The notes below the pieces were generated by a model. It was not told the origin of the DNA and ran no database searches. It saw only the letters and a program-made list of their open reading frames with translations. The position numbers were made by a program, and so were the translations under genes. Below are positions 11,199 to 29,033 of a stretch of DNA of 64,000 nucleotides, one piece after another. Each line of letters begins with the position of its first letter. Position 1 is the first letter of the stretch. This DNA is from Acidimicrobiia bacterium (lineage in GTDB: Bacteria > Actinomycetota > Acidimicrobiia > IMCC26256 > PALSA-610). The stretch spans positions 1-64,000 of the forward strand of contig DATBAK010000026.1 of assembly GCA_036271555.1 (NCBI GenBank), written 5' to 3'.

Positions 11199-11630
11199 AT
11201 GAGCGACAGCAACACGGAGATGGTGGCGGCGCACTTCATCGTCTCGGACGATGTCGAGCGGTCCCGCCGCTTCTACAGCGACGTGCTGGGCGGCAAGACC
11301 GTGATCTCCGGCGAGTCGGGAGACGACGTGACCTACGTCGCGCTCGCGAACACCTGGGTCATCATCAACGTCGGCGGCGGTCCGACGGACGACAAGCCGA
11401 CCGTCACGCTCGAGCCGCCGCGCGACCCGGATCGCGTGAGCAGCTTCCTCAACATTCGGGTCGCCGACATCCACGCCGTGTACGCCGAGTGGAAGGCGCG
11501 CGGCGCGCAGTTCCTGACCGAGCCGAAGCAGCACGAGACCGAGCTCCGCTGCTACATCCGGGACCCCGACGGCTACATCATCGAAGTCGGCCAGACCACC
11601 CTGCCGCGAGGTTGGCGTCCGCCGGCGTGA
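11199..11630 (+). CDS. VOC (glyoxalase/dioxygenase) superfamily protein
   Basis: 143 residues from the ATG at 11199, with a strong AGGGAGG ribosome site at 11187-11193. An open frame reaching upstream to 10839 is rejected because it would overlap the divergent methyltransferase. The two beta-alpha-beta-beta-beta modules are visible: AHFIVSDDVERSRRFYSDVL, and FLNIRVADIHAVYAEWKARG ending in CYIRDPDGYIIEVGQ. The final Glu is the usual metal ligand position, and the N-terminal His (AAHFIV) is another. The substrate is unknown; relatives include glyoxalases, fosfomycin-resistance enzymes and extradiol dioxygenases. Confidence 0.85.
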   Translation: MSDSNTEMVAAHFIVSDDVERSRRFYSDVLGGKTVISGESGDDVTYVALANTWVIINVGGGPTDDKPTVTLEPPRDPDRVSSFLNIRVADIHAVYAEWKARGAQFLTEPKQHETELRCYIRDPDGYIIEVGQTTLPRGWRPPA

Positions 11631-11689
11631 GCGCGATCGCCCTGGGGTGCGACGGGCGGGTGACGGCGGGCGCGCGCGACCATCTCCGC

Positions 11690-12670
11690 ATGCTGGGGCG
11701 GGGCAAGGGCCGGAAGGCGGGCGCGGGCGTGGCCGTGCTCGCGTTGGTGACGATCGGGACCGCCGGTGCGGGCGTCCCCGCGCACGCGGCGTCGGGCGGC
11801 ACCACGGTGGCGCCCTACGTCGACATGGCGGGGCCGAACCCGAGCGCGCTCGACGACGCGATCACGAAGGACGGGCTGACCGACTTCACCGCCGCGTTCG
11901 TGATCGCCAAGGGCTGCACGCCGACGTGGGACGACGGAACGAAGGTCGCGACGAACGCCGCGTTCGCGGATCGGATACAAACCGCTCGCGACGAAGGCGC
12001 GGAGCCCATCGTGTCGTTCGGCGGCCAGGCCGGGAAGGATCTCGCCCGCACGTGCACCGACCAGGCCAAGGTCACGGCGGGCTACCAAGCGGTGATCCAC
12101 CAGTTCGGCGTGAACCGCGTCGACTTCGACGTCGAGGGCAAGGCGCTCAAGGACACGGCCGGACTCGCGCGCCGCTTCGTCGCGATCCACGCGCTCGAGG
12201 CTGCGAACCCCGGGCTGGTCGTGTCGGCGACGCTGCCCGTCGGACCCTCAGGGCTGCTCGAGACCGGTGTGCAGTTCCTGCACCGGGCGCACGACGCGGA
12301 CGTTCGCCTCGACCTCGTGAACATCATGGCGATGGACTACGGCGACGCGCGCGACATGGGCGCGGCCGCGATCAGCGCGGCACGGGGCGCGCGCACCCAA
12401 CTCGATGCCGTCTGGCCCGCCGACACCTACGCCAACCTCGGCGTGACGCCGATGATCGGGGTGAACGACACCGCGGTCGAGGTGTTCAGCATGAAGAACG
12501 CGAACACGCTCGTGCGCTTCGCGCGTCAGAACGGCCTCGGCCGGCTCGGGTTCTGGTCGATCGACCGCGATCAGAAGTGCAAGCCGCCGAAGCAGAAGGC
12601 GCGCGCCGACTGCTCGGGCGTGGCTCAGAAGCCGGGCGCGTTCGCCGAGACCTTCGCGTCGGCGGGCTGA
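11690..12670 (+). CDS. Secreted glycoside hydrolase family 18 (chitinase-like) protein
   Basis: 326 residues from the ATG at 11690; GTGs at 11660 and 11627 are possible earlier starts, the latter overlapping the VOC stop. The signal peptide is MLGRGKGRKAGAGVAVLALV and continues to AHAAS. The mature chain begins with VAPYVDMAG, has SFGG in strand 3 (EPIVSFGGQAG) and the catalytic motif VDFDVEG (D-x-D-x-E, Glu as acid), then NIMAMDYGD. This is the arrangement of the single-domain bacterial GH18 group that includes chitinases and chitin-binding relatives. No separate carbohydrate-binding module is present. Its 3' end overlaps the convergent membrane-protein gene by 46 bp. Confidence 0.85.
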   Translation: MLGRGKGRKAGAGVAVLALVTIGTAGAGVPAHAASGGTTVAPYVDMAGPNPSALDDAITKDGLTDFTAAFVIAKGCTPTWDDGTKVATNAAFADRIQTARDEGAEPIVSFGGQAGKDLARTCTDQAKVTAGYQAVIHQFGVNRVDFDVEGKALKDTAGLARRFVAIHALEAANPGLVVSATLPVGPSGLLETGVQFLHRAHDADVRLDLVNIMAMDYGDARDMGAAAISAARGARTQLDAVWPADTYANLGVTPMIGVNDTAVEVFSMKNANTLVRFARQNGLGRLGFWSIDRDQKCKPPKQKARADCSGVAQKPGAFAETFASAG

Positions 12671-13758: not shown

Positions 13759-16425
13759 CTATTTCGCGGATGCCCAGTTGGGCCCGAAGCCCAGGTCGAC
13801 CACCAGCGGAACCTTCAGCGCGCACACCGACTCCATCGTCGTGCGCACGAGCTCCCGCACCGACTGCTCTTCGCCGGTCGGCACCTCCAGCACGATCTCG
13901 TCGTGCACGGTGAGGATCATGCTGCTCTCGGATCCCGCCTCGGCGAGTGCGGCGTCGACGTCGATCATCGCGAGCTTGAAGATGTCGGCGGCCGAGCCCT
14001 GCACCGGCGCGTTCTGCGCCATCCGCTCCCCCATCTGGCGGATACGGAAGTTGTCGGACGCGAGCTCGGGCAGCAGCCGGCGCCGGCCGAAGATCGTGGT
14101 CGTGTAACCGCGCGACTTCGCCTCGCGCACCGACTCGTCCATGTACGCGTGGACGTTCGGGAAGCTCTCGAAGTACGCGTCGAGGATCTCGCGCGCCTGA
14201 TCCGTCGGGATGTCGAGCCGCTGACCGAGGCCGTACGCCTCCATCCCGTACGCGAGCCCGTAGTTCACGACCTTCGCGAAGCGGCGTTGGAACTCGTCGA
14301 CCTTCGCCTCGTCGACACCGAACACGCGCGCCGCGGTCACGGTGTGCACGTCGAGGTTGCGCGCGAACGCGTCGATCAAGCCGGGATCCTCGGCGAGGTG
14401 TGCGAGGACGCGCAGCTCGATCTGCGAGTAGTCGGCGGTGAGGAGACCGAAGCCCTTCGCCGCGACGAACGCCTTGCGCATCTCGCGCCCGCCGGACGTG
14501 CGGACGGGGATGTTCTGCAGGTTCGGCGAGTCGCTCGAGATGCGACCGGTCGTGGTGGAGATCTGATTGAAGCTCGCGTGGATGCGACGGTCGGGACCGA
14601 CGAGCGGCGGCAGCGCGTCGGCGTAGGTGCCGCGCAGCTTCTCGACCTCGCGGTAGCGGAGGAGGTCGGCGACGATCGGGTGCGTCTCCGCCATCTTCTG
14701 CAGCGAGTCCGCGTCGGTCGACGGACCCGTCTTCGTGCGCTTCACCGGTGTGAGCCCGAGCACGTCGAACAGGATGTGGCGCACCTGCGGCGTCGAGTTG
14801 ACGTTGAACGTCTCCCCCGCGTGCGCTTGGATCTTCGCCTCGAGATCCCGGCACTGGCTCCCGAGATCCGAGCTCAGCGCTTCGAGAAACGCGAGGTCGA
14901 CGGCGACGCCCGCGTGCTCCATGCGCGCGAGCACGGGAACGAGTGGCCGTTCGAAGCGCTCGTACAACGCGGTCAGCTCACGCGCGTCCATCGCCTCGCG
15001 CAATCGGTCGACGAGCAACAACAAGGCCGCGGCCTCGCGGCCCGTGCGCTCGGACTCCTGATCGCCGCCGAAGTCGAGGGTTCCTTCGACCGCGTCGGGC
15101 GATCGCAGCTCGATCGACAGGTAGCGCAGCGCGAGGTCGTCGAGGAGGTACTTCCCCTCGGCGGGATCGAGCAGGTACGCCATGATCGCGGTGTCGGATT
15201 CGAGCCCGCTCAGGTCGAGCTCGCCGAGTCCGTGGATGAGCTCCTTCGCGCGGTGCACCACGATCGGCGGGCCCGATGCGCCGACCAAACGCGCGAGCGC
15301 CTCGCGCACCGCGGCCGCCTCGAGCGTCTCGGCGTCGAAGTAGACGGCCGCGTCGGTCGTGCGCGCGGCGGCGAGCCCCAGGAGCGCGCTGCGGCCGGCG
15401 CCGCCGGCCCAGCGCGCGTCGAGCGCGACGCGGTCGGATTGCGCGGCGAGCTCGTCGAGCGCGGCGACGGCCTCGCCCGCGTCGCGCACCGTCCGCACCT
15501 CGACCTCGAACGCGACCGCGTCGACGGGTTCCGCGTCGGGTTCGGCCGCGCCGATCGCTTCGAGGGTGCGCGGCAGCAGCGTGCGGAACTCGAGCTGGTT
15601 GAACAGCACACGAAGTTTGTCGCGGTCGATCGCGTGCATCGTGAAGTCGTCGAAGCCGACTTCCAACGGCACGTCGCGGCGCAGGATGCTCATCGCGCGG
15701 TTCTTGAACACGCGCTCCTGCGCCTCACCGAGGTTCTGACGCTGCTTCGGTGGCAACGAATCGAGGTTCTCGAAGATCTGCTCGAGCGTGTCGTAGGTCG
15801 CGACGAGCTTCGATGCGGTCTTCTCGCCGATGCCCGGGACGCCGGGCAGGTTGTCGGAGGGGTCGCCGCGCAGCGCGGCGTACTCGGGGTACTGCGTGGG
15901 CGTCACACCCGTGCGCTCGAAGATGCCCGCCTCGTCGTAGAGCGCGTAGTCGGACACACCTCGCCGGTTGTAGAGCACCTTGATGTGCGGGTCGCGCACC
16001 AGCTGGTACGAGTCGCGGTCGCCGGTGACGATGATGACGTCGATGCCGCCGTCGGCGGCCTGCGTCGCGAGCGTCGCGATCACGTCGTCGGCTTCGACGC
16101 CGCTCTCCTCGATCATCGTGATGTCGAGGACGTCGAGCACTTCGCGGATCAGCGGCAGCTGCGACTTGAACAGGTCGGGCGCGGCGGAGCGCCCCGCCTT
16201 GTACTCGGCGTCCATGTCGTCGCGGAACGTGCGGCCGGGGGTGTCGAACGCGACGGCGACCAGATCAGGGTGCTCGTCGCCGATCACCTTCGTGAGCATC
16301 GCCGTGAAGCCGTACACCGCGTTCGTCACGGTTCCCGCCGCGGTCGCGAGATCGGTCGGGAGTGCGAAGAACGCGCGGTACGCGAGCGAGTGGCCGTCGA
16401 GCAGGAGGAGCTTGCGCGCGGTCAC
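13759..16425 (-). CDS. polA: DNA polymerase I
   Basis: 888 residues from a GTG at 16425 overlapping the stop of the ANTAR gene (GTGA). N-terminal 5'-nuclease/FEN domain about 1-290 (LLLDGHSLAYRAFF, AFDTPGRTFR, GDPSDNLPGVPGIGEKTA). A 3'-5' exonuclease-like domain spans about 310-490. The polymerase domain fills the rest: motif A ADYSQIELRVLAHLAED, O-helix RRFAKVVNYGLAYG with Tyr722, motif C TVHDEIVLEVP. The exonuclease domain lacks the catalytic acids: VALDARW replaces the DxE motif, and HRAKEL stands where an LKxD motif is expected. Proofreading is therefore probably absent, as in other actinobacterial PolA. It functions in Okazaki fragment maturation and excision repair. Confidence 0.97.
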   Translation of the reverse strand: MTARKLLLLDGHSLAYRAFFALPTDLATAAGTVTNAVYGFTAMLTKVIGDEHPDLVAVAFDTPGRTFRDDMDAEYKAGRSAAPDLFKSQLPLIREVLDVLDITMIEESGVEADDVIATLATQAADGGIDVIIVTGDRDSYQLVRDPHIKVLYNRRGVSDYALYDEAGIFERTGVTPTQYPEYAALRGDPSDNLPGVPGIGEKTASKLVATYDTLEQIFENLDSLPPKQRQNLGEAQERVFKNRAMSILRRDVPLEVGFDDFTMHAIDRDKLRVLFNQLEFRTLLPRTLEAIGAAEPDAEPVDAVAFEVEVRTVRDAGEAVAALDELAAQSDRVALDARWAGGAGRSALLGLAAARTTDAAVYFDAETLEAAAVREALARLVGASGPPIVVHRAKELIHGLGELDLSGLESDTAIMAYLLDPAEGKYLLDDLALRYLSIELRSPDAVEGTLDFGGDQESERTGREAAALLLLVDRLREAMDARELTALYERFERPLVPVLARMEHAGVAVDLAFLEALSSDLGSQCRDLEAKIQAHAGETFNVNSTPQVRHILFDVLGLTPVKRTKTGPSTDADSLQKMAETHPIVADLLRYREVEKLRGTYADALPPLVGPDRRIHASFNQISTTTGRISSDSPNLQNIPVRTSGGREMRKAFVAAKGFGLLTADYSQIELRVLAHLAEDPGLIDAFARNLDVHTVTAARVFGVDEAKVDEFQRRFAKVVNYGLAYGMEAYGLGQRLDIPTDQAREILDAYFESFPNVHAYMDESVREAKSRGYTTTIFGRRRLLPELASDNFRIRQMGERMAQNAPVQGSAADIFKLAMIDVDAALAEAGSESSMILTVHDEIVLEVPTGEEQSVRELVRTTMESVCALKVPLVVDLGFGPNWASAK

Positions 16426-17003
16426 GGAGAGAGCGAACCGGCGATCACGTCGGTCGCCACGGCCGCGATCGTGCGGCGCGTGTTCATCGCCGTACGTTGC
16501 AGGAAGCGCCACGCGTCCGACTCGCTCAGGCCGTGCTCGTCCATGAGGCGACCCTTGGCGCGGTCGGTGAGCTTGCGCGCCTCGAGCCGCTCCGCGAGGT
16601 CGGCGTTCTCCTGCTCGAGCGCGACGAGCTGCTCGTGCCGACCGAGCGCCATCTCGATCGCGGGAATGAGGTCGCTCTTCTGGAACGGCTTCACGAGGTA
16701 TGCGAGCGCGCCCGCGTCGCGCGCCTGCTCGACGAGGTCGTGCTGCGAGAACGCGGTGAGGATGAGCACCGCCGCGAGCCGCTCGCTCGCGATGTGGCGC
16801 GCGGCCGTGAGGCCGTCCATGCCCGGCATCTTGATGTCGAGGATCACGAGGTCGGGCTTGAGGTCGCGCACGAGCTCGATGGCCTGGTCGCCACGACCGG
16901 TCTCGCCCACGACCTCGTAGCCGTCCTCTTCCAGGATCTCCTTGAGGTCGAGACGGATGATGGCCTCGTCCTCGGCGACGACGACACGGACCGGCTGGGT
17001 CAC
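16422..17003 (-). CDS. pdtaR: ANTAR-domain response regulator (PdtaR-like)
   Basis: 193 residues from the GTG at 17003, with AAAGG upstream. A receiver domain (about 1-120) has the acidic pair Glu11/Asp12, phosphoacceptor Asp56 (LVILDIKMPG) and Lys105. A coiled linker (HEQLVALEQENADLAERLEARK) leads to an ANTAR RNA-binding domain (about 135-190; LTDRAKGRLMDEHGLSESDA, then FLQRTAMNTRR). ANTAR regulators act by binding RNA hairpins to control antitermination; in mycobacteria PdtaR is paired with the kinase PdtaS. No cognate kinase is present here. The gene is immediately upstream of and coupled to polA. Confidence 0.92.
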   Translation of the reverse strand: MTQPVRVVVAEDEAIIRLDLKEILEEDGYEVVGETGRGDQAIELVRDLKPDLVILDIKMPGMDGLTAARHIASERLAAVLILTAFSQHDLVEQARDAGALAYLVKPFQKSDLIPAIEMALGRHEQLVALEQENADLAERLEARKLTDRAKGRLMDEHGLSESDAWRFLQRTAMNTRRTIAAVATDVIAGSLSP

Positions 17004-17040
17004 TGCGAGGGCCTTTCGGGGTTCCGGGCGGGGGCGGCGC

Positions 17041-17340
17041 TCAGTGTGAGGGCTGTTCGGCCGCCATGCGGTCGAGCAGCGCATCCTGCTCGCGTTCGAG
17101 CTCGGCAATCGAACGGACGAGGACGTCGCGCTGCCGGGCGAGGGCGTCCGCGTGCCGCCGGCTCTCGCGCGCCTCCGCGTCGGCCAGCGGCGTCTCGGAG
17201 ACGAGCGAGCGCAGACGCGCGTCGTCGGCCTCCTCCTCCATGAACAGAAGCTGCTCCTGTGCGACCGCGAGGTCGGCGCGCAACCGCTTGAGGCGATCGC
17301 TGACGTCGATGAGCCGCCGCTCGAGCAGCGAATGGGTCAC
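17041..17340 (-). CDS. Small coiled-coil protein of unknown function
   Basis: 99 residues from a GTG at 17340. The whole chain is charged and heptad-like (RLIDVSDRLKRLRADLAVA; then DVLVRSIAELEREQDALLDR), with no membrane segment or Cys, so a helical hairpin or coiled coil is likely. It lies 37 bp upstream of the ANTAR regulator gene on the same strand and may share its transcript. It is divergent from the HTH gene at 17407. I recognise no family. Confidence 0.6.
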   Translation of the reverse strand: MTHSLLERRLIDVSDRLKRLRADLAVAQEQLLFMEEEADDARLRSLVSETPLADAEARESRRHADALARQRDVLVRSIAELEREQDALLDRMAAEQPSH

Positions 17341-17406
17341 CCCGTCATTCTACGAGGCGCGTCCCACGACGGCTCGGGCGACGGCGAGGGATAGCGTCGC
17401 CCGCCA

Positions 17407-17811
17407 ATGGGGAGATCTGTGGGGCGTGCCCAGGCTCGGCGCGCGTATCTCGACGCCATCGATCAGCTCGACACTGCCGATCGAGCGTTGCGTACCGAGT
17501 TGGCCCGCGCCCGCCGGAATCGAGCGATGCTGCGGAGACACCTGGCCGAAGGAGGCGACGCGGCAGGCTGCCGAGAGCTCCTCGACCTGCGTAGCGCGAC
17601 GACCGACTTCGACGGCGCCGTGGGCCGGCTGCTCGCCGGCAGGCGACGCGCGCAGCGGGCGATGTACCAGCTCTCGGCCGCCGAAGGCATGACCGCAACC
17701 GAGATCGCCCGGACGTGGGGCGTCTCGCGACAGTTCGTCTCGCGCATCCTCAAGAACGCGCGCGCCCACAACAAGAAGGTGGGCGGGCCGGGTTCACGTG
17801 TGGGGTCGTGA
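17407..17811 (+). CDS. Small helix-turn-helix protein
   Basis: 134 residues if started at the ATG at 17407. A GTG at 17419 has a better-placed GGGGAG and would remove four residues. The N-terminal 85 residues are Arg/Ala-rich helices. The C-terminal part has a clear HTH: MTATEIARTWGVSRQFVSRI followed by a basic tail, similar to sigma region 4 or resolvase-type HTH motifs. Probably a DNA-binding regulator; the target is unknown. It lies between the divergent coiled-coil gene and the kdp locus. The 234-bp gap after it (17812-18045) contains an 8-bp inverted repeat. Confidence 0.65.
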   Translation: MGRSVGRAQARRAYLDAIDQLDTADRALRTELARARRNRAMLRRHLAEGGDAAGCRELLDLRSATTDFDGAVGRLLAGRRRAQRAMYQLSAAEGMTATEIARTWGVSRQFVSRILKNARAHNKKVGGPGSRVGS

Positions 17812-17900
17812 AGCCCGGCCCTGCCCATGCTCAGGACGCGCGCGGCTCTCTCCGCAGGCACCCCAGGACGGCGGATCGTACTGGCAGAACCCGCCTCCGT

Positions 17901-17918
17901 GCGCAACCGAGGTTGCGC
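17901..17918. repeat. 8-bp inverted repeat upstream of the kdp locus
   Basis: Arms GCGCAACC (17901-17908) and GGTTGCGC (17911-17918) are perfect complements separated by GA. It lies 90 bp after the HTH gene stop and 128 bp before the DUF4118 gene. It could be an operator or a weak transcript-end hairpin; there is no T tract. The rest of the 17812-18045 gap shows no riboswitch or promoter I can support. Confidence 0.35.
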
Positions 17919-18045
17919 GCGGGATCGCGCCGGCACACGCGGTCGGCCCGTGGGCGCGTGACGGCGCCATCAAGATTTCTCGACTCGGCGTGAGGACGGC
18001 GTAAAGACGCTGGTCGCGGCGACGCCGCGGCGCGACAACCCGAGC

Positions 18046-18813
18046 GTGGCCCCAAACGCACCGCTCGACCGCCGCATCGCCAGCATGGCGATGCTCGCCG
18101 CGCTGCTCGTCCCTCCTGCGGCCGCGGCGGCGCTCGTCCCCGTGCGCGACCACACCGACAACGCCAACCTCGCGCTCGCCCTCGTCGTCGTGGTGGTCGC
18201 AGTGGCGACGTTCGGTCACCGCGGCGCGACGGTCGTCAGCGCGGTGTCGGCGGCCGCCTGGTTCGACTTCTTCCACACGCGGCCGTACTACTCGTTCACG
18301 ATCACCGCGCACGACGACGTCGTCACGTTCGTGCTGTTGCTGCTCGTCGGCGTCGTCGTCGGCGAGCTCGCGATCCGCACCCGCCGCAGCCGGCGCGCGG
18401 CCAAGCAGGGCAGCGACGACCTCGCGCACCTGCACGCGATCGCCGAGCTCGTCGCGGGCGGCGAGCGGCCCGACATCGCGGTCGTCACGGTCGCGATCGA
18501 GCTGCGCCGCATCTTCGACCTCCAGGACTGCACGTTCGAGCCCGCGCCGTTCGAGACCATCCCGAAGATCGCGCACCTCGAGCGCAGCGGGAACGTCGTG
18601 TTCGGCGGCCTCGGCTGGGGCGTCGGGACGATGGGGCTGCCGGGCCATCGCGTCGACCTCGTCGTCGCCGGCTACGGCCGCACCTTCGGTCGCTTCCTCC
18701 TCACACCCCGGCCCGGGCGGCCGGTCTCGTTCGACCGCCGCATCGTCGCGACCGCGCTCGCCGACCAGGTCGCGGCGGCGTTCGTCGCCGACTCCGCAAC
18801 CACGGCGCCCTAG
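18046..18813 (+). CDS. DUF4118 membrane protein at the head of the kdp operon (KdpD sensor-like)
   Basis: 255 residues from a GTG at 18046. Residues 14-110 form three to four membrane helices, with the DUF4118 hallmark AAAWFDFFHTRPYYSFTITA. This matches the membrane sensor module of KdpD (compare LNWFFAPPIHTFTI in the kdpD product here). A soluble C-terminal part of about 140 residues follows (FDLQDCTFEP, then RRIVATALADQVAAAFVA) and resembles a small GAF-like domain. There is no histidine kinase or Usp domain. Thirteen bp separate it from the next small gene, so it probably belongs to the kdp transcript. A role in sensing K+ or osmotic state, or in modulating KdpD, is inference. Confidence 0.75.
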   Translation: MAPNAPLDRRIASMAMLAALLVPPAAAAALVPVRDHTDNANLALALVVVVVAVATFGHRGATVVSAVSAAAWFDFFHTRPYYSFTITAHDDVVTFVLLLLVGVVVGELAIRTRRSRRAAKQGSDDLAHLHAIAELVAGGERPDIAVVTVAIELRRIFDLQDCTFEPAPFETIPKIAHLERSGNVVFGGLGWGVGTMGLPGHRVDLVVAGYGRTFGRFLLTPRPGRPVSFDRRIVATALADQVAAAFVADSATTAP

Positions 18814-18825
18814 GAAGGAGTCCCC

Positions 18826-18969
18826 GTGCAAGATGTGATCTTCGTTGCCATCCTCGTCGCGTTCTTCGCACTCGCCGCGCTCTTCGTACGTGCGTGCGAC
18901 CGCATCATCGGCGACGAGACCGAGTCGACCGACTCACCGCGCGCGGAAGAGCTGGCGGACGCGGCATGA
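18826..18969 (+). CDS. 47-residue single-pass membrane peptide in the kdp operon
   Basis: GTG at 18826 with a strong GGAAGGAG ribosome site 5 bp upstream; stop at 18967-18969. One membrane helix (VIFVAILVAFFALAALFVRA) is followed by an acidic tail (DRIIGDETESTDSPRAEE). The ribosome site, the helix and the position between the DUF4118 gene and kdpF support a real gene. It is KdpF-sized but has no KdpF motif. It may be a regulatory or stabilising small subunit, which is inference. Confidence 0.7.
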   Translation: MQDVIFVAILVAFFALAALFVRACDRIIGDETESTDSPRAEELADAA

Positions 18970-19018
18970 GCATCAGCCGGCACGACGCGCTCGCTCACGC
19001 GGCCGAAGGCGCGAGCGA

Positions 19019-19108
19019 ATGAGCTACGACAACGGTGTCGGACTCGTGCTCGCGATCCTCGTGACCGCGTACCTCGTGTACGCGCTCGTGTTCCCGGAGA
19101 AGCTGTAG
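19019..19108 (+). CDS. kdpF: K+-transporting ATPase small subunit KdpF
   Basis: 29 residues: one membrane helix (GLVLAILVTAYLVYALVFPE) ending PEKL, the typical KdpF pattern. ATG at 19019, stop at 19106-19108, 44 bp before kdpA. KdpF is a lipid-like stabiliser of the KdpFABC complex. The size and the YLVYALVFPE motif make this secure despite the short length. Confidence 0.88.
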   Translation: MSYDNGVGLVLAILVTAYLVYALVFPEKL

Positions 19109-19152
19109 TGCCTGGGCCCGGCCGCGTCACACGATCCCGGTCGAGGTACTGA

Positions 19153-20868
19153 ATGTCGGCGTCCGCGTGGCTCCAGCTGCTCTGCCTGATCGCGCTGCTC
19201 GCGATCTCGACACCGATCCTCGGCTCCTACCTCGCCAAGATCTACGGCGACGGCACGGCACCGGGCGATCGGGTGTTCCTGCCGGTCGAGCACGCGATCT
19301 ATCGAGCGTGTCGTGTCGACCCGGACCGCGAGCAGCGGTGGAACGTCTACGCCTACTCGCTGCTCGCGTTCAGTGCGGTGTCGGTGCTGATCCTCTACGC
19401 GCAGCTCCGGCTGCAGGGACACCTGCCGGTGAACCCGACGCACGTCGTCGGACTCGGGCCCGCGCTGTCGTTCAACACCGCGGCGAGCTTCCTCACGAAC
19501 ACGAACTGGCAGAACTACGCCGGTGAGTCCGCGATGTCGTACCTCAGCCAGATGGCGGGGCTCGCGCTGCACAACTTCGTGTCGGCCGCCGCAGGCGCCG
19601 CGGTCGCGGTCGCGTTGGTGCGCGGGCTCGTACGCGGCCGCGCGAAGACGCTCGGCAACTTCTGGGTCGACCTCGTCCGCACGACGACGCGCGTCCTGAT
19701 CCCGATCGCGTTCGTGGGCGCACTCGTGCTCGTCAGCCAGGGCGTCGTGCAGAACTTCCACTCGAACCGCGTGGTGACGACGGTCAGCGGTCAGCAGCAG
19801 ACGATTCCCGGCGGGCCGATCGCGAGCCAGGAAGCGATCAAGGAGACCGGCCAGAACGGCGGCGGCCCGTACAACGCGAACTCCGCGCACCCGTTCGAGA
19901 ACCCGAACCCGATCACGAACCTGTTGGAGCTCTGGCTCATCCTCGCGATCCCGTTGGCGTTCCCGTGGATGTTCGGGAAGATGGGCGGCAACCTGCGACA
20001 AGGCATGGTCGTGCTCGCGGTGATGGTCGCGTTCTGGCTCGTCGGCGCGCTCGTCGCGATGCACTTCGACACCAATCCGAACCCGAAGCTCACGGCGCTG
20101 AACGTGAGTCAATCGCAGACGTCGACGCAGGCCGGCGGGAGCGCCGAAGGGACCGAATCCCGCTTCGGACCCGCGGGCTGCGGATTGTTCGCCGATACGA
20201 CGACGGGGACGTCGACCGGCGCGGTGGACTGCGCGCACGACAGCATGGAACCGATCGCGGGCGCGGTCCCGCTCGTGAACATCATGCTCGGCGAGGTGAG
20301 CCCCGGCGGCACGGGATCGGGTCTCTACGGAATGCTGATCTTCGCGTTGACCGCGGTGTTCATCGCGGGGCTCATGGTCGGGCGCACGCCCGAGTACCTC
20401 GGCAAGAAGATCCAGGCCGCGGAGATGAAGCTCGTCGTCGTCTACCTGCTCGCGGTGCCACTCGTGATCCTCACGTTCGCGGCCATCTCGATCGTGCTGA
20501 AGACCGCGCTGCACTCGCAGGCGAACTCGGGGCCGCACGGCCTGACCGAGATGGTCTATGCGTTCGCGTCCGCGTCGAACAACAACGGCTCGGCGTTCGG
20601 CGGGCTCAGCGGCAACACGCAGTGGTTCAACACGACGCTCGGGATCTGTTTCCTCGTCGGCCGCTTCTTCCTCATGGTGCCGGCGCTCGCGATCGCGGGA
20701 TCCCTCGGTCGGAAGCAACCGGTGCCGCCGTCGGCGGGCACGTTCCCGACCGACACTCCCCTGTTCGCGGCACTGCTCGGCGGCGTCGTGATCATCGTCG
20801 TGGGGCTCACGTTCTTCCCGGTGATCGCGCTCGGTCCGATCGTCGAGCACCTCGTGGGCAAGTTCTGA
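19153..20868 (+). CDS. kdpA: K+-transporting ATPase potassium-binding subunit KdpA
   Basis: 571 residues, ten or so membrane helices in four pseudo-repeats. The selectivity-filter loops are visible: [32 protein letters not shown] and [11 protein letters not shown]. KdpA binds K+ and passes it through the inter-subunit tunnel to KdpB. The ATG at 19153 is the only reasonable start ([12 protein letters not shown]). Length is normal. It is followed after 106 bp by kdpB. Confidence 0.97.
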
Positions 20869-20974
20869 TGGTCGCACTCGCTCACGCTCGCCGCTCCGGA
20901 CGCCTCGGCCCCCGACCGTGGCCGCGCCGCTCGCTTCGCTCGCGCGCTCGGGCGGGAACGTCGAAGGAGAGCTC

Positions 20975-23080
20975 GTGACTGCATCCGCGATCGATCCGCA
21001 GACCGAGCCCGCGCACGAGACCGTGCCGAGCCTGAGCGCGCGGCCGACGAAGCGCCGGTCGGCGTCGATGTTCGACCCCGCGCTCATGAAGCGCGCGGTC
21101 GGCGACTCGTTCCGCAAGCTCGACCCGCGGCAGATGGCGCGCAACCCGGTGATGTTCGTCGTCGAGATCGGCAGCGTCATCACCACCGTGCTGTTCCTCC
21201 GCGACGCGCACCGATCGACGGCGGCCGACAACGTGTTCGTCGGACTCGTCACCGCGTGGCTCTGGTTCACCGTGCTGTTCGCGAACTTCGCGGAGGCGGT
21301 CGCCGAAGGTCGCGGGAAGGCCCAGGCCGACACGCTGCGCAAGACGCGCTCCGAGACCGTCGCCCGCGTGCTCCAACCCGACGGCACGACCCGAGAAGTA
21401 CCGTCGAGTCGGCTCACGGTCGGCGATCGCTGCGAGGTCGTCGCCGGCGAGATCATTCCCGGCGACGGTGACGTCGTCGAAGGCATCGCGTCCGTCGACG
21501 AGTCCGCGATCACCGGCGAGTCGGCCCCCGTGATCCGAGAATCCGGTGGGGACCGCAGCTCGGTGACCGGCGGCACGCGCGTGCTGTCGGACCGAATCGT
21601 CGTCGAGATCTCGTCGAAGCCGGGCGAGAGCTTCCTCGACCGCATGATCTCGCTCGTCGAAGGCGCGTCGCGTCAGAAGACGCCGAACGAGATCGCGCTC
21701 AACATCCTGCTGGCGGGGCTCACGATCATCTTCCTGCTCGCCGTCGTGACCCTGCAGCCGTTCGCGATCTACTCGGGCGCGCCGCAGACGATCACCGTGC
21801 TCGTCGCGCTGCTCGTGTGCCTCATCCCGACGACGATCGGCGCGTTGCTCTCCGCGATCGGCATCGCGGGCATGGACCGGCTCGTGCAACGCAACGTGCT
21901 CGCGATGTCGGGCCGCGCGGTCGAGGCCGCGGGCGACTGCTCGACGCTGCTGCTCGACAAGACCGGCACGATCACGCTCGGCAACCGGCAGGCCGCGGAG
22001 TTCCTCCCGCTTCCGGGCGTGTCGGAGGATCAGCTCGCCGACGCCGCGCAGCTCTCGAGTCTCGCCGACGAGACGCCGGAAGGGCGTTCGATCGTGGTGC
22101 TCGCGAAGGACCGCTACGGGTTGCGCGAACGCGAGCTGTCGGGCGCGACGCTCGTGCCGTTCACCGCGCAGACGCGCATGAGCGGTGTCGACATCGAGGA
22201 CCGCTCCATCCGCAAGGGCGCGACCGACTCGGTCAAGCGCTGGGTGCGGGAGAACGGCGGGACGGTGCCGGCCGAGCTCGACCCGATCGTCGAAGGCATC
22301 TCCAAGCACGGCGGTACGCCCCTCGCCGTCGCCGACGGCGATCGGGTCCTGGGTGTGATCCACCTCAAGGACGTCGTGAAGGAGGGCATCGCCGAGCGCT
22401 TCGCCGAGCTCCGGCGCATGGGCATCCGCACGGTGATGATCACCGGCGACAACCCGTTGACCGCGGCCGCCATCGCGACCGAGGCGGGCGTCGACGACTT
22501 CCTCGCGGAAGCGACGCCCGAGGACAAGATGGCGCTGATCAGGAAGGAGCAGTCGGGCGGCGCGCTCGTCGCCATGACCGGCGACGGCACGAACGACGCG
22601 CCCGCGCTCGCGCAGGCCGATGTCGGCGTCGCGATGAACACCGGCACGCAGGCCGCCAAAGAGGCCGGCAACATGGTCGACCTCGACTCCAACCCGACGA
22701 AGCTCATCGAGATCGTCGAGATCGGGAAGCAGCTGCTCATCACGCGCGGCTCGCTGACGACGTTCTCGATCGCGAACGACGTCGCGAAGTACTTCGCCAT
22801 CATCCCCGCGATGTTCCAGGGCGTGTTCCCGCAGTTGCGCACGCTGAACATCATGCGGCTCGACAACCCGCACACCGCGATCCTCTCCGCGGTCATCTTC
22901 AACGCGCTGATCATCGTGGCGTTGATTCCGCTCGCGCTGCGGGGCGTGAAGTTCCGCGCGTTGGGCGCGGCCGCGGTACTGCGGCGAAACCTCTTGATCT
23001 ACGGCCTGGGCGGGCTCGTCGCGCCGTTCATCGGGATCAAGCTCATCGACCTGATCCTCTCGGCCTCGGGGGTGCACTGA
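20975..23080 (+). CDS. kdpB: K+-transporting P-type ATPase ATP-binding subunit KdpB
   Basis: 701 residues from a GTG at 20975 with GAAGGAGA just upstream; an in-frame GTG at 20918 lacks such a site. P-type ATPase hallmarks: actuator motif AITGESAPV, phosphorylation motif DKTGTIT with Asp328, and hinge [17 protein letters not shown]. The N-terminal Ser-rich segment before FDPALMKRA is unstructured. KdpB hydrolyses ATP and completes K+ transport with KdpA. One bp separates its stop from kdpC. Confidence 0.97.
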
Positions 23081-23081
23081 C

Positions 23082-23669
23082 ATGCGGCGACAGTTGGTGC
23101 CCGCGCTCATGATGACGATCGCACTCACGATCCTCACCGGACTCGCCTATCCGCTCGTCCTGACCGGAGTCGCGCAGGGCCTGTTCTCGGCGCGCGCGAA
23201 CGGCTCGCTCGTGAAGGTCGACGGCAAGGTCGTCGGCTCCTCGCTCCTGGGACAGGACTTCACCGCGACGAAGTACTTCCACCCGCGGCCGTCCGCGACC
23301 GCCGAGACGCCGTACAACGGGCTCGCGTCCGGCGCGTCGAACCTCGGCCCGTCGAACCCCGACCTCATCAGCACGGTGAAGGCGCGCGCGATCGCGTACC
23401 GGAAGCTCAACGGGCTCGCCGCGAACGCGCAGGTGCCGGTCGACGCGGTGACGGCTTCGGGCTCGGGCCTCGACCCCGACATCTCCGTCGCGAACGCGCG
23501 GTTGCAGGCTCCCCGGGTGGCGAGGGTGCGGGACCTGTCCGTCGCGACCGTGCTCGCCGCAGTCGGTCGCCACACCGAGAACCGGGCCTGGGGCTTCCTC
23601 GGCGAGAAGGTCGTGAACGTCCTCGAGCTCGACGTCGACCTCGACCGACTGTCCGTCGCGGCAAAGTAG
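23082..23669 (+). CDS. kdpC: K+-transporting ATPase subunit KdpC
   Basis: 195 residues with one N-terminal membrane helix (ALMMTIALTILTGLAYPLVL) and a periplasmic-type domain. Family motifs are GSLLGQDFT, YFHPRPSA, SGASNLGPSNP and ASGSGLDPDIS. KdpC stabilises KdpA-KdpB and aids K+ affinity. ATG at 23082 directly after the kdpB stop. Length is usual. Confidence 0.96.
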   Translation: MRRQLVPALMMTIALTILTGLAYPLVLTGVAQGLFSARANGSLVKVDGKVVGSSLLGQDFTATKYFHPRPSATAETPYNGLASGASNLGPSNPDLISTVKARAIAYRKLNGLAANAQVPVDAVTASGSGLDPDISVANARLQAPRVARVRDLSVATVLAAVGRHTENRAWGFLGEKVVNVLELDVDLDRLSVAAK

Positions 23670-23748
23670 AGCGGTGAGGAATGGGCAGAACCGCCGGAAA
23701 CGGGCCGGTCGCTTGGCGGCCCGCCCGACGCGGCGGCCGAGGCGTCGA

Positions 23749-23773
23749 GGCGGGCGAAGCTTGCGAGCCCGCC
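23749..23773 (+). promoter_or_regulatory. Hairpin directly before the kdpD start codon
   Basis: Arms GGCGGGC (23749-23755) and GCCCGCC (23767-23773) are perfect complements with an 11-nt loop, and the second arm ends one base before the kdpD ATG at 23775. No Shine-Dalgarno sequence is visible outside it. In mRNA this stem would hide the initiation region, so it may dampen kdpD translation relative to kdpFABC. It could also be a by-product of high GC. Confidence 0.4.
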
Positions 23774-23774
23774 C

Positions 23775-26300
23775 ATGAGCACGGGCTCGCTGCGGGTGTA
23801 TCTCGGGGCGGCACCGGGCGTCGGCAAGACGTTCGCGATGCTCGACGAGGGGCGCCGGCGCAGCGAGCGCGGCACCGCCGACATCGTCGTCGGGCTGGTC
23901 GAGACGCACAACCGGCCCAAGACGATCGCGCAGCTCGCGGGCCTCGAGATCGTCCCCCGCAGGGAGATCGACTACCGCGGCCAGCGCTTCGAGGAGATGG
24001 ACGTCGACGCGATCCTCGCGCGGAATCCCGAGGTCGCACTCGTCGACGAGCTCGCGCACAGCAACGTGCCCGGTTCGCGCAACCAGAAGCGTTGGCAGGA
24101 CATCGAGGAGCTGCTCGCCGCGGGCATCAACGTCATCTCGACGGTGAACATCCAGCACCTCGAGTCGCTGAACGACGTCGTCCAGCGCATCACCGGGGTT
24201 GCGCAGCGCGAGACGGTTCCCGACGCGATCGTGCGGGCGGCCGACCAGATCGAGCTCGTCGACATGAGCCCGGAGGCGCTGCGCCGCCGCATGGCGCACG
24301 GCAACATCTATTCGGCCGAGCGCATCGACACCGCGCTCGCCAACTACTTCCGCATCGGCAATCTCGCCGCGCTGCGCGAGCTCGCGCTGCTGTGGGTCGC
24401 GGACCGGGTCGACGAGAACCTGCAGGAGTACCGCGAACGCCACGGCGTCGCCGACTCGTGGGAGACGAAGGAGCGGGTCCTCGTCGCGCTGACGGGCGCG
24501 CCCGGCGGCGACGACCTCGTGCGCCGCGCGGCGCGCATCGCGATGCGCACACGCGCGCTGCTCATCGGGGTGCACGTGCAGTCGTCCGACGGACTCGCAG
24601 ACTCGGCGTTGGGCGACGTCGAGGCGCACCGCGCGCTGCTCGAGGAGTTCGGCGGGCAGTATCACGAGGTCGCGGGCGCGGATGTCGGGCGTGCGATCGT
24701 TCAGGTCGCCCGATCCGAGAACGCGACGCAGGTCCTGCTCGGTGCGAGCGCGCGCTCACGCTGGAACGAGCTCGTGCGCGGCTCCGTCATCAACGACGTC
24801 ATCCGGCAGGCGGGCGGCGCGTTCGACGTCCACGTGATCTCGACCGCCGGCGCGGAGGGCGAGGAGCGCGCGCCGTCACTGCTACCCCCGCCGCGATTGC
24901 GGCTCGCCGCGCTGTCGCGCCGACGACTCGGGATCGGATTCGCGCTCGCACTCGTCGGGCTCCCGATCCTCACGTTCGTGCTCTCGCACCTCCGCGACAA
25001 CATCGGTCTACAGAACGCGCTCCTCTGCTACCTGTTCATGGTCGTCGCGGTCGCGACCATCGGCGGCGCGCTGCCGGCCGCGGTCGCGTCGGTGCTCGCG
25101 TTCGTGCTCCTCAACTGGTTCTTCGCACCACCGATCCACACCTTCACGATCTCGAACGGGCGCGACGTGCTCGCGCTCGTCGCCTTCCTCGTCGTCGCCG
25201 CCGTGATCAGCGTGCTCGTCGACCTCGCGACGCGCCGGCGCAACGACGCGTATCGCGCGCGCGGCGAAGCGCGCTCCCTCGCGCGCATGGCCGCGGTCGT
25301 GCTGCGCGCGAGCGATCCCCTCCCCGAGCTCGTGTCCGACCTCGTGGCCACGTTCCACCTCGACGGTGGCGCCGTGCTCACGCCGTCGAAGGGCGGCTGG
25401 CACGTCGACGCGGCCGCGGGCACGCATCCACCGACATCGCCGGTCGACGCCAACATCGCGTTGCCGCTGCCGGGCGACGCGACGCTCGTGCTGAAGGGCT
25501 CGGGGCTGCGCGCGGAAGACCGTGAGGTGTTCGACGCCTTCGCGACCCAGCTCGGCGTCGCGATCGAGAGCCGGCGGTTGCAGGCCGAGGCCGCGGGCGC
25601 CGCCGCGCTGGCCAAGGCCAACGAGCTGCGCACCGCGCTGCTCGCGGCCGTGAGCCACGACCTGCGCACGCCGCTCGCGTCGATCAAGACCGCGGCGACG
25701 AGCCTGCTGTCCGAGGACGTGTCGTTCGATCCGGCCGCGGAACGCGCGCTGCTCGAGACGATCGACGACGAATCGGATCGGCTGAACCGGCTCGTCGGCA
25801 ACCTGCTCGACATGAGCCGCCTACAGACCGGCGCGCTGGTCGTGCAGGCGCGCGCCGTCGGGCTCGAGGAAGTGGTGGGCAGCGCGATCGCCGAAGTGTC
25901 CGCGAACGCGCCCGCGATCGACGTCGACGTCGACGTGCCCGACAGCCTCCCGCTCGTCGACGCCGATCCCGTGCTGCTGGAGCGCGCGCTCGTCAACATC
26001 GTCGGCAACGCGATCCGCTACTCCCCGCCCGGCGAGCGCGTGCGGGTCCACGCAGGAACCGTCGACGGGCGCGTCGAGCTGCGCGTGGTCGATCGCGGGC
26101 GCGGCATCCCGGTCGCGGAGCGCGAGCGCGCGTTCCAACCCTTCCAGCGGTTGGGCGATCACCCGAACGGCGAAGGCGTGGGGCTCGGCCTGGCCGTCGC
26201 GCGAGGCTTCGTCGAGGCGATGGCCGGTGTCGTCTCGGTCGACGACACGCCGGGAGGCGGCTGCACGGTGATCCTCGACCTGCCCGAAGCCGGCCCGTGA
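23775..26300 (+). CDS. kdpD: Osmosensitive K+ channel histidine kinase KdpD
   Basis: 841 residues in the full KdpD order. The N-terminal KdpD domain has Walker A GAAPGVGKT and the motif DELAHSNVPGSRNQKRWQD (1-210). A Usp-like domain covers about 230-350. The DUF4118 module has four membrane helices (about 380-480, with LNWFFAPPIHTFTI). A GAF-like region covers about 495-600. The HisKA H-box is AAVSHDLRTPLASIK (His628), and HATPase boxes follow (VNIVGNAIRYSP, GRGIPVAERE, GVGLGLAVA). It senses K+ limitation and ionic strength and phosphorylates KdpE. The stop overlaps the kdpE start. Confidence 0.96.
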   Translation: MSTGSLRVYLGAAPGVGKTFAMLDEGRRRSERGTADIVVGLVETHNRPKTIAQLAGLEIVPRREIDYRGQRFEEMDVDAILARNPEVALVDELAHSNVPGSRNQKRWQDIEELLAAGINVISTVNIQHLESLNDVVQRITGVAQRETVPDAIVRAADQIELVDMSPEALRRRMAHGNIYSAERIDTALANYFRIGNLAALRELALLWVADRVDENLQEYRERHGVADSWETKERVLVALTGAPGGDDLVRRAARIAMRTRALLIGVHVQSSDGLADSALGDVEAHRALLEEFGGQYHEVAGADVGRAIVQVARSENATQVLLGASARSRWNELVRGSVINDVIRQAGGAFDVHVISTAGAEGEERAPSLLPPPRLRLAALSRRRLGIGFALALVGLPILTFVLSHLRDNIGLQNALLCYLFMVVAVATIGGALPAAVASVLAFVLLNWFFAPPIHTFTISNGRDVLALVAFLVVAAVISVLVDLATRRRNDAYRARGEARSLARMAAVVLRASDPLPELVSDLVATFHLDGGAVLTPSKGGWHVDAAAGTHPPTSPVDANIALPLPGDATLVLKGSGLRAEDREVFDAFATQLGVAIESRRLQAEAAGAAALAKANELRTALLAAVSHDLRTPLASIKTAATSLLSEDVSFDPAAERALLETIDDESDRLNRLVGNLLDMSRLQTGALVVQARAVGLEEVVGSAIAEVSANAPAIDVDVDVPDSLPLVDADPVLLERALVNIVGNAIRYSPPGERVRVHAGTVDGRVELRVVDRGRGIPVAERERAFQPFQRLGDHPNGEGVGLGLAVARGFVEAMAGVVSVDDTPGGGCTVILDLPEAGP

Positions 26301-26989
26301 CGAAGCTGCTCATCGTCGACGACGAGGCCCGCTTCACGCGCGCGCTCGCGATCAGCCTCCGTGCGCGCGGCTACGAGGTCGAGACCGCGGCCACGGGCGA
26401 GGAAGGCCTCGAGCTCGCGGCGCGCGTGCATCCCGACGTCGTCGTGCTCGACCTCGGCCTGCCGACCCTCGGTGGACTCGACGTGTTGCGGGCGCTGCGC
26501 GGGTGGACGTCGGTGCCGGTGATCGTGCTGTCGGCGCGCCACGAGGAGCAGACGAAGGTCGAAGCGCTCGACCTCGGCGCCGACGACTACGTCACGAAGC
26601 CGTTCGGGATGGACGAGCTGCTCGCGCGGCTCCGCGCGACGCTGCGCCGGAGCGTCCCCGGTCAAGACGACCCCGTCGTCGAGACGGCCGACTTCTCGAT
26701 CGATCTCGCCGCGAAGCGCGCTCGGGATGCGAACGGCAACGAGGTGCGCCTCACACCGATCGAGTGGGGCATCGTCACGACCCTCGTCCGCAACCGCGGC
26801 AAGCTCGTCACGCAGCGGCAGCTGTTGCAGGAGGTATGGGGACCTGGCTACGGGACGGAGACCGAGTACCTGCGCGTCCACCTCGCCGCGATCCGGCGCA
26901 AGCTGGAACCGACACCGTCGCGTCCCCGATACTTCGTGACCGAGGCCGGCATGGGTTACCGCTTGGAGTGGATCGACTCGCCGGCGTGA
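26297..26989 (+). CDS. kdpE: Response regulator KdpE (OmpR/PhoB family)
   Basis: 230 residues from a GTG at 26297 overlapping the kdpD stop (GTGA). The receiver domain has Asp8/Asp9, phosphoacceptor Asp52 (VVLDLGLP), Ser79 and Lys101 (YVTKPFG). A winged-helix domain fills 130-225 (LTPIEWGIVTTLVRNRGKLV, then EYLRVHLAAIRRKLE). It activates kdpFABC when phosphorylated by KdpD. Here the sensor genes are downstream of and co-directional with the pump genes, so the operon is likely autoregulated. Confidence 0.95.
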   Translation: MTKLLIVDDEARFTRALAISLRARGYEVETAATGEEGLELAARVHPDVVVLDLGLPTLGGLDVLRALRGWTSVPVIVLSARHEEQTKVEALDLGADDYVTKPFGMDELLARLRATLRRSVPGQDDPVVETADFSIDLAAKRARDANGNEVRLTPIEWGIVTTLVRNRGKLVTQRQLLQEVWGPGYGTETEYLRVHLAAIRRKLEPTPSRPRYFVTEAGMGYRLEWIDSPA

Positions 26990-27014
26990 GCGGCGCGGTT
27001 CGGAGGCACGCGCA

Positions 27015-27575
27015 ATGGTCGTCCCCTCGTTACGAAACAAGCTGCTCGTCGCAGGCCCTGCGCTCGGCGACCCGAACTTCGAACGCACCGTCGTGCTCAT
27101 GCTCGACCACGGCACGGAGGGCGCGCTCGGCATCGTGCTGAACCGGCCGACCGACACGCCCCTGGCGGAAGCGGTCAGCGACTGGGCACCGCTGGCGACG
27201 CCGCCCGCCGTCGTGTATCTCGGCGGACCCGTCGGCATCGGCACGATCATCGCCCTCGGCCGCACGGCCGACGAGGACGATGCTCCGCCCGGCACCGAGC
27301 CGGTCACCGGCACGCTCGTCGCCGTCGACCTCTCGACCGATCCCGAGGCACTCGTGTCCCGACTCACCGACCTGCGGGTCTGGACCGGGTACGCGGGTTG
27401 GGCGGGCGGGCAGCTCGAGGCGGAGCTCGCGCAGGAAGCGTGGTTCGTCGTCGACGCCGATGTCGCCGACGCGACGACTTCGGATCCCGGTGCGCTCTGG
27501 CGCGCGGTGCTCGGACGGCAACCCGGCACGCTCGCGTGGTTCTCGAACTTCCCCGAGGATCCCGCGCAGAACTGA
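27015..27575 (+). CDS. YqgE/AlgH family protein
   Basis: 186 residues with the DUF179 signature: LLVAGPALGDPNFERTVVLM near the N-terminus, then GTEGALGIVLNRPT, YLGGPV and a GYAGWAGGQLEAEL motif at about 117-130. The family has unknown biochemical function and was linked historically to alginate regulation in Pseudomonas. It starts 25 bp after kdpE on the same strand but is usually unlinked to kdp. A short hairpin with a T tract overlaps its stop. Confidence 0.9.
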   Translation: MVVPSLRNKLLVAGPALGDPNFERTVVLMLDHGTEGALGIVLNRPTDTPLAEAVSDWAPLATPPAVVYLGGPVGIGTIIALGRTADEDDAPPGTEPVTGTLVAVDLSTDPEALVSRLTDLRVWTGYAGWAGGQLEAELAQEAWFVVDADVADATTSDPGALWRAVLGRQPGTLAWFSNFPEDPAQN

Positions 27576-27588
27576 CGCGCGCCTTTTT
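27563..27588 (+). terminator. Possible intrinsic terminator after the YqgE gene
   Basis: CGCGC (27563-27567) and GCGCG (27577-27581) can form a 5-bp GC stem with a 9-nt loop, followed by CC and five T residues (27584-27588). The stem covers the stop codon. Runs of five T are rare in this GC-rich sequence. The stem is short, so confidence is moderate. Confidence 0.4.
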
Positions 27589-27729
27589 CCAGATGTTGGT
27601 CGACGCGGTGTCACGGGCGCGCCGACGCATCCGCGACGCACGGTTCACATGCGCGAACGCACGCTGACGCGTGGATAGCGTGCGGTCGACGGCACTGCAC
27701 GTGGCCGCCCCCCGACACAGAGGTGGGAC

Positions 27730-28983
27730 ATGACTCGTCGGCATTCGCTTCGTTCCCGCGTCGCTCTCTGCGCGTCCGGCGCAGTGTTGATCGCGTTCGT
27801 CGCGGCCGCGCCCGCGGGCGCGACGAACCGCGTGCCGGTGCGCGCCGGCTACGGACATCCGCACGGCGCGACGACCGTGCATCCGCACGTGGTCGGCACC
27901 GTGAGCGTGACGCCGTCGAACATCGTCTTCCCCGCGCAACGCGCCGGCACCTTCAGCGGGGTCGGCAAGACCGTCACCATCACGAACACGGGCACGGTCC
28001 CGGTGACGTTCAGCGACATCGAGCCGACGAAGAACGACTTCTTCGGTCTCACGAGCTGCTTCGACGACTCGCTGCCCATCGGCGAGTCGTGCACGATCAC
28101 CAACTACTTCATGCCGAACGCGGTCGGCGCCCGATCGGGGACGCTCGAGATCTCCGACGACGCCGCGAACTCACCGCAGAAGGTCACGATGAGCGGCACC
28201 GGCGTCGAGGGCTATTACGTCGCGGGCGCGGGCGGCGAGGTCGCCGGCTTCGGTGACGCGGTCGACGAGGGCGACGCGACGAACGTCGGCCTCACGCAGC
28301 CGATCATCTCGATCAAGACGACGACGAACGGCGACGGCTACTGGCTCCTCGGCTCCGACGGCGGCATCTTCAGCTACGGCAACGCGCACTTCTACGGGTC
28401 GACCGGCGGCATCCACCTCAACCAGCCCGTCGTCGGCATGGAGCGCACGGTGACCGGCAAGGGCTACTGGCTCGTCGCGTCCGACGGCGGCATCTTCAGC
28501 TACGGCGACGCGAAGTTCTACGGCTCCACCGGCGCGATCCACCTCAACCAACCGGTCGTCGGGATGGCGCGCACACCGACCGGCCACGGCTACTGGCTCG
28601 TCGCGCGCGACGGCGGCATCTTCAGCTTCGGTGACGCGAAGTTCTACGGCTCCACCGGCGCGATCCATCTCAACCAACCCATCGTCGGCATGGTGCCGCG
28701 GCCGAACGGCAAGGGCTACTGGCTCCACGCGAAGGACGGCGGTTTGTTCGCGTTCGGCGACGCGCCGTTCTACGGCGGCGCGGCCGCGTCGGGTCTGTCG
28801 ATCTCGGGCATGGCGGCGACGCCGGACGGCGGTGGCTACTGGATGACGTCGACGACCGGCGCGGTGTTCCACTACGGAAACGCCGCGAGCTACGGCGACC
28901 TCCCGTCACACGGCGTGGCGGCGAGCGACGTCGTCGGCATCGCGCCGACCTCGCCACCCTTGCCGATCGAGTTCTTCAACTGA
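27730..28983 (+). CDS. Secreted protein: ASH (choice-of-anchor D) domain plus GYWLVASDGGIFSYG repeats
   Basis: 417 residues with a signal peptide (SLRSRVALCASGAVLIAFVA, then AAPAGA). Residues about 55-158 form an immunoglobulin-like ASPM-SPD-2-Hydin domain (VTPSNIVFPAQRAGTFSG, VTITNTGTVPVTF). From about residue 160 there are five to six units of roughly 45 residues with the core GYWLVASDGGIFSYGDAKFY, likely beta-propeller blades. Exported and probably surface-attached; no sortase motif or membrane anchor is seen. A second protein of the same design lies at 30181-32280 on the other strand. Function unknown. Confidence 0.8.
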   Translation: MTRRHSLRSRVALCASGAVLIAFVAAAPAGATNRVPVRAGYGHPHGATTVHPHVVGTVSVTPSNIVFPAQRAGTFSGVGKTVTITNTGTVPVTFSDIEPTKNDFFGLTSCFDDSLPIGESCTITNYFMPNAVGARSGTLEISDDAANSPQKVTMSGTGVEGYYVAGAGGEVAGFGDAVDEGDATNVGLTQPIISIKTTTNGDGYWLLGSDGGIFSYGNAHFYGSTGGIHLNQPVVGMERTVTGKGYWLVASDGGIFSYGDAKFYGSTGAIHLNQPVVGMARTPTGHGYWLVARDGGIFSFGDAKFYGSTGAIHLNQPIVGMVPRPNGKGYWLHAKDGGLFAFGDAPFYGGAAASGLSISGMAATPDGGGYWMTSTTGAVFHYGNAASYGDLPSHGVAASDVVGIAPTSPPLPIEFFN

Positions 28984-29033
28984 CGCGCGTCACCGGCTGA
29001 GCTCGCGAGCGGCGGGAGCGGCCGAGCACGTCG

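Follow-up and report, generated by a model that had tools for sequence, protein, structure and literature searches.

A stand-alone KdpD-like input module and a conserved small membrane peptide at the head of a kdp operon in Acidimicrobiia

KdpFABC and KdpDE are the textbook systems for K+ uptake and K+ sensing, and both are known mainly from Escherichia coli. As laid out in the available part of PMC11018627, K+ sensing lies in the transmembrane (TM) and GAF domains of KdpD and histidine kinase activity in its DHp/CA part, and the N-terminal domain is an inhibitory serine kinase acting on KdpB. The same part of that paper describes short KdpD/Usp chains and split KdpD, which resemble the protein treated here in having parts of KdpD on separate polypeptides. 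In these published splits, the KdpD/Usp domain is kept, or a KdpD/Usp serine kinase is combined with a TM/GAF/DHpCA kinase; no chain of TM/GAF alone next to a full-length KdpD is described there. For small peptides, the accessible text of PMC3618439 reports a two-hybrid contact between KdpF and KdpD, finds kdp regulation in BCG not importantly changed by KdpF overexpression, and covers MgrB and SafA, small membrane peptides that act on the sensor kinase PhoQ and may be a precedent for the peptide treated here. In the accessible parts of the open-access papers searched, neither a stand-alone DUF4118/GAF protein nor a second peptide before kdpF is described. The name KdpG was considered for a kdp gene and set aside, as it denotes a sugar acid in the available part of PMC12117332.

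The window, that is, the whole analysed stretch of 64,000 nucleotides from an Acidimicrobiia bacterium, carries a DUF4118/GAF gene, a gene for a 47-residue peptide and kdpFABCDE in a row on one strand (Table 1). Open reading frames and Pfam matches agree with the coordinates and gene order given in an earlier note on this DNA, and the good ribosome site that it placed before the small peptide is present. KdpF reaches 30.3 bits with PF09604, above the gathering score of 21.2, and 24.2 bits with TIGR02115, below the cut-off of 26.85. Since KdpD is full length, the DUF4118/GAF protein is an addition to it and not a replacement. An Rfam scan of positions 14000-30000 gave one sub-threshold chance match and nothing more, and a defence-system library gave no match for the DUF4118/GAF protein or the peptide. 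A 134-residue helix-turn-helix protein is encoded on the same strand 5' of the DUF4118/GAF gene (17407-17811); its MarR_2 and HTH_23 matches are barely above cut-off and a sigma-r4-like match is weaker.

Table 1. Features at the head of the kdp operon and along it
Feature	Position	Strand	Basis
Putative KdpE box, 11-bp direct repeat GCGTNARG-N3-GCGTNARG	17988..18006	+	motif match
Possible -10 element GACAAC, 6 nt 5' of GTG	18034..18039	+	by eye
DUF4118 + GAF protein, stand-alone, kinase-less KdpD input module, 255 aa, GTG start	18046..18813	+	ORF, Pfam, profile alignment, tree, model
Ribosome-binding site GAAGGAG for the 47-aa peptide	18814..18820	+	read from sequence
47-aa single-TM peptide, GTG start, unannotated family 5' of kdpF	18826..18969	+	ORF, peptide profile
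kdpF, 29 aa	19019..19108	+	PF09604 3.7e-7
kdpA	19153..20868	+	domain match
kdpB	20918..23080	+	domain match; TGES motif visible
kdpC	23082..23669	+	domain match
kdpD, full length (KdpD, Usp, DUF4118, HisKA, HATPase)	23775..26300	+	domain match
kdpE	26297..26989	+	domain match

The four-helix DUF4118 membrane module (PF13493, 1.1e-23) is the sole Pfam match above cut-off in the 255-residue protein. With Pfam searched up to E = 1, the protein has neither the N-terminal KdpD domain (PF02702, serine kinase) nor a Usp domain, nor any HisKA or HATPase_c histidine kinase match, and the KdpD-like non-kinase sensor family NF038185, a 373-position model, is not among the families matched. A profile-profile alignment of 94 relatives of the protein with 57 KdpDs pairs window residues 7-255 with residues 393-652 of E. 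coli KdpD (b0695) at 99.3% probability, E 1.4e-20 and 21% identity. The aligned region comprises the four membrane helices and the GAF domain and stops before the DHp domain. Additionally, an AlphaFold model built from 71 of 74 of these proteins (three odd or short ones were omitted) is confident, with pLDDT 88.8 and pTM 0.69, and its cytoplasmic part has a GAF fold with Z 8-9 against many GAF domains. The E. coli KdpD GAF is among them (4qpr, Z 8.2, rmsd 3.4 over 117 residues; 4y2f, Z 8.1), and non-KdpD GAF domains match as highly. Residues P80, S83, F84 and I86 align with P466, T469, L470 and V472 of E. coli KdpD, which we take to matter for sensing outer K+; in the loop corresponding to E. 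coli 466-472, the proline and the isoleucine are invariant in the alignment of 71. Profile alignment and GAF model together show that the first gene encodes, as an independent chain, the predicted K+-input module of KdpD, made up of the membrane part and GAF. It shares this architecture, and the operon, with KdpD but differs from it in having neither the KdpD/Usp serine-kinase part nor DHp/CA, and in forming a separate clade. The earlier description of a DUF4118-only sensor without kinase therefore stands for the kinase and fails for DUF4118 alone, the C-terminal half being GAF.

The genes around this module point to K+ uptake. Among 96 loci found by the stand-alone protein alone, kdpA, kdpB, kdpC or kdpD lies within 3 kb in 47, the K+ transporter gene KimA alone in 10 and neither in 39; where at least 3 kb is available on both sides (66 loci), the numbers are 38, 8 and 20, so that 46/66 have kdp or KimA. 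The duplicate loci L076, L105, L113 and L119 are excluded from these counts, and the paralog from the window's own genome (L005) was scored as neither though its 3' end overlaps a KimA gene. The position of the gene varies: it is found 5' of the peptide gene and kdpF, in the gap between kdpC and kdpD, after kdpD (Streptomyces), after kdpE, and beside KimA. That the linkage to K+ genes persists through such rearrangement speaks for function. The layout of the window recurs in relatives, where the earlier note had proposed to look for it, and does so beyond chance: the order DUF4118/GAF gene, small peptide, kdpF, kdpA is present in 9/17 kdpA-bearing genomes (among 61, own included) and in 7 further named contigs. 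One of the nine, the kdp locus of genome G003 (L042), is full of frameshifts, probably assembly errors. In five Acidimicrobiaceae kdp loci (L057, L062, L097, L098, L117) the gene lies between kdpC and kdpD, and a divergent KdpE/KdpD-like pair sits on the other side of kdpA.

The best reading of the DUF4118/GAF protein, from homology and neighbourhood, is that of a detached K+ sensor for K+ uptake systems. Its homology to the input module of KdpD, together with the linkage to K+ genes, makes the tuning of K+ sensing suggested in the earlier note a sound inference. KdpD would be the likelier partner at kdp loci, and transporters are the main rival. Under this rival explanation, the protein would belong to the transporters (KdpFABC, KimA) as a regulatory subunit that reads K+ and brakes or activates them without the need for KdpD. 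Three loci (L025, L029, L034) have the gene 5' of KimA on the same strand. Genome G014, 95% complete, has it directly 5' of KimA and carries neither kdpA nor a KdpD-domain match; a KdpD-domain match is also absent from G011 (86% complete), which makes 2/18 genomes bearing the stand-alone gene. Moreover, the own-genome paralog on contig 73 overlaps the 3' end of a gene (L005:10347-12701) whose product matches the solved KimA structure 6s3k at 1.2e-59. However, kdpD directly adjoins the gene in many loci at a distance of 69-341 bp, and the module's homology is to the input domain of a kinase and not to any known transporter subunit. A transporter subunit independent of KdpD is therefore somewhat unlikely, and it is the strongest of the alternatives. 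KdpD remains the favoured partner, yet the pairing with KdpD that the earlier note had put forward is not the whole story, because the gene also adjoins KimA and two of the 18 genomes have no detectable KdpD domain; for the same reason KdpD is not an obligatory partner.

Two of the KimA loci have further features. The KimA product at L005 continues at its C-terminus into a fused OB-fold domain (PF01336, 6.1e-7), and the fused gene faces the paralog with overlapping 3' ends; the available part of PMC13118837 describes a Streptomyces OB-fold protein whose gene is in synteny with trkA and kdpDE. At L029:3872-9193, a hybrid histidine kinase, the DUF4118/GAF protein and KimA are encoded in a tight row on one strand.

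The control region before the first gene provides another link to Kdp. A perfect match to the direct repeat of Table 1 lies 58 bp 5' of the gene and has no perfect counterpart elsewhere in the 4.68 Mb genome. It is also the sole match in the window at no more than one mismatch (expected 0.18); genome-wide, seven one-mismatch sites are at chance level, with ten in the backward control. The consensus was read by eye from the regions upstream of the DUF4118/GAF genes, the window included, and was checked by a spacing control and on 76 kdp loci without the gene. At the 11-bp spacing, a score of at least 12/14 is reached upstream of 21/92 DUF4118/GAF genes, against 0-3 at the other spacings tried; the remaining 71/92 score below 12/14. 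Upstream of kdpA in the kdp loci without the gene, the same score is reached in 22/76 at the 11-bp spacing, against 1-5 at other spacings. In operons headed by the DUF4118/GAF gene, the repeat occurs within 600 bp before kdpA in just 2/21. OmpR/PhoB-type regulators commonly use direct repeats of about 11 bp, which makes KdpE the obvious candidate binder, and from position, spacing and rarity we infer that KdpE would bind here. With a kdp-type repeat whose sole perfect genomic match lies 58 bp upstream, the DUF4118/GAF gene probably opens a putative KdpE-driven operon. The -10-like element 6 nt from the GTG suggests that the first gene may be leaderless; by eye, relatives (e.g. L028, L032, L037, L039) show TACAAC at the place of GACAAC. 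As observations that would speak against it, the earlier note had named absence of the arrangement from any relative and a separate promoter responding to unrelated signals; neither was found, given that relatives share the arrangement and that the site next to the promoter is a kdp-type one.

The product of the second gene was described in the earlier note as a second KdpF-sized peptide. Like KdpF (PF09604, TIGR02115), it is a single-TM peptide of the kdp operon encoded 5' of kdpA. Unlike KdpF, it is matched by neither of these KdpF models, is encoded 5' of kdpF itself and has an FFAL core, so that it is not a second KdpF. No solved structure matches it up to E = 10. DUF5671 and BcsF were weak Pfam matches below cut-off and were dropped as identities. 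A profile built from nine relatives, the window peptide included, was applied to 150 further loci (2.12 Mb), a set which includes Acidimicrobiaceae loci near the training set. At 12 bits or more, 42/43 hits share the strand of a kdpA and lie at most 450 bp 5' of it, a zone that makes up 1.1% of the search space; at 8 bits or more, 55/56 do. The lone exception is a second peptide copy in L148, 5' of its DUF4118/GAF gene. In that locus (11237-12214), two peptide copies flank the DUF4118/GAF gene before kdpF, a possible duplication. The profile finds the peptide just 5' of kdpF in Streptomyces, and at the same place outside Actinomycetota in Burkholderia (33.5 bits), Rhizobium (30.4), Azospirillum (26.6) and Deinococcus (20.5), with weaker matches in Phyllobacterium (17.3) and Acetobacter (11.0). 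By eye, it is also seen in Shinella, Sinorhizobium and perhaps Listeria, and is not seen at the kdp loci of E. coli, Raoultella, Enterobacter, Moraxella, Lactiplantibacillus, Enterococcus, Halobacterium, Trichormus and Synechocystis; neither the DUF4118/GAF gene nor the peptide gene was found at the E. coli locus. Furthermore, a KdpF-like peptide is recognised in 81 of 97 actinobacterial kdpA upstream regions, preceded by a second TM peptide in 77/81, compared with 2.9% at random positions. Many of the peptides have the FFAL core, the C-terminal end is often [DE]-R-[LI], and an acidic tail occurs in Acidimicrobiia. The second gene is thereby shown to encode a conserved, predicted single-TM peptide directly 5' of kdpF across phyla. 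The family is mostly without annotation: in gene tables, which are incomplete, Azospirillum, Acetobacter, Rhizobium and Deinococcus lack an entry at its place, and the Phyllobacterium entry there is a 'hypothetical protein' whose start is extended.

Instead of a working peptide, the small frame could be a leader or a translational coupler for kdpF. Its stop overlaps the kdpF start in Streptomyces, and dN/dS values of 0.44 and 0.57, from peptides of Acidimicrobiia and Streptomyces picked by hand, are only moderately low. This explanation is nevertheless improbable, as conservation extends to the peptide sequence itself, across Acidimicrobiia, Burkholderia, Rhizobium and Deinococcus, the FFAL core recurs, and the window frame does not overlap kdpF. 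A working peptide is thus preferred. The arrangement of DUF4118/GAF gene and peptide gene is confirmed as real and recurrent, and the peptide is more widespread than first thought: what had been taken for a speciality of an expanded operon lies before kdpF in the majority of the actinobacterial kdp loci examined, in several Proteobacteria and in Deinococcus.

As to the stand-alone protein, it might alternatively read K+ for another partner, such as a histidine kinase or a c-di-AMP enzyme, its neighbourhood reflecting mere co-regulation. The loci with no kdp or KimA gene within 3 kb, and the hybrid histidine kinase gene directly 5' of the L029 pair, would fit this. But when the neighbours of 28 non-kdp loci were clustered, no family was common to more than four loci (ten neighbours were named), and such a partner seems slightly less probable still than the leader peptide.

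The protein represents an old, separate family that has stayed beside genes for K+ uptake (kdp, KimA). Of 61 genomes (own plus 60 relatives), 18 have a copy, full-length or split; the best named matches are metagenome-assembled genomes of Acidimicrobiales and Acidimicrobiaceae, and the best 80 of 180 candidate loci from named genomes are mostly from Acidimicrobiia, Streptomyces, Kitasatospora and Streptosporangiaceae. A search for plasmid spread gave just two partial matches among 72,556 records. In a tree of 148 modules, for which three proteins of at most 230 residues were left out of 94 and the KdpDs are actinobacterial except that of E. coli, a branch with SH-aLRT 99 splits all 91 stand-alone proteins from all 57 KdpDs, a pattern not expected if local kdpD genes had been truncated again and again. 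That the gene is a degenerate, non-functional piece of a duplicated kdpD, as its homology to KdpD in length and position might suggest, is very improbable in view of this split and of 14 invariant columns in the alignment of 71.

Taken as a whole, the operon is best explained as combining a detached K+ sensor with a KdpFABC accessory peptide under the control of KdpE, a sequence-based reading to which a probability of about 0.5 is given. Under K+ limitation, KdpE would turn on the whole unit from the DUF4118/GAF gene to kdpE. The putative sensor, seated in the membrane, would read K+ through its outer loop, its GAF domain or both. Its four helices and GAF helix could then act on a partner. In most cases this would be KdpD, which contains a module of the same fold; joined to KdpD in a mixed oligomer, the kinase-dead protein may limit or shape the histidine-kinase and serine-kinase outputs, and such oligomers could shift the K+ level at which both switch. 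At KimA loci, the partner may be the transporter. The peptide would serve as a small accessory subunit of KdpFABC, aiding its assembly or coupling it to KdpD, much as proposed for KdpF; given the lack of an important effect of KdpF overexpression in BCG, a contact between peptide and KdpD need not be regulatory.

These findings suggest that the regulatory parts of a textbook pump are not yet fully described. More tentatively, and at less than even odds, a free K+-sensing subunit would be shared by the Kdp pump, KdpD and KimA, and a widespread KdpFABC subunit encoded before kdpF would be missing from the E. coli model. With the naturally isolated TM/GAF module, the reading of K+ by KdpD can be studied directly and apart from the two kinases. 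In rhizobia, Burkholderia, Deinococcus and the majority of the Actinomycetota loci examined, Kdp may include a subunit or assembly factor missing from purified complexes of E. coli. If true, this would be a KdpFABC subunit absent from the E. coli model, and hence from the work resting on that model.
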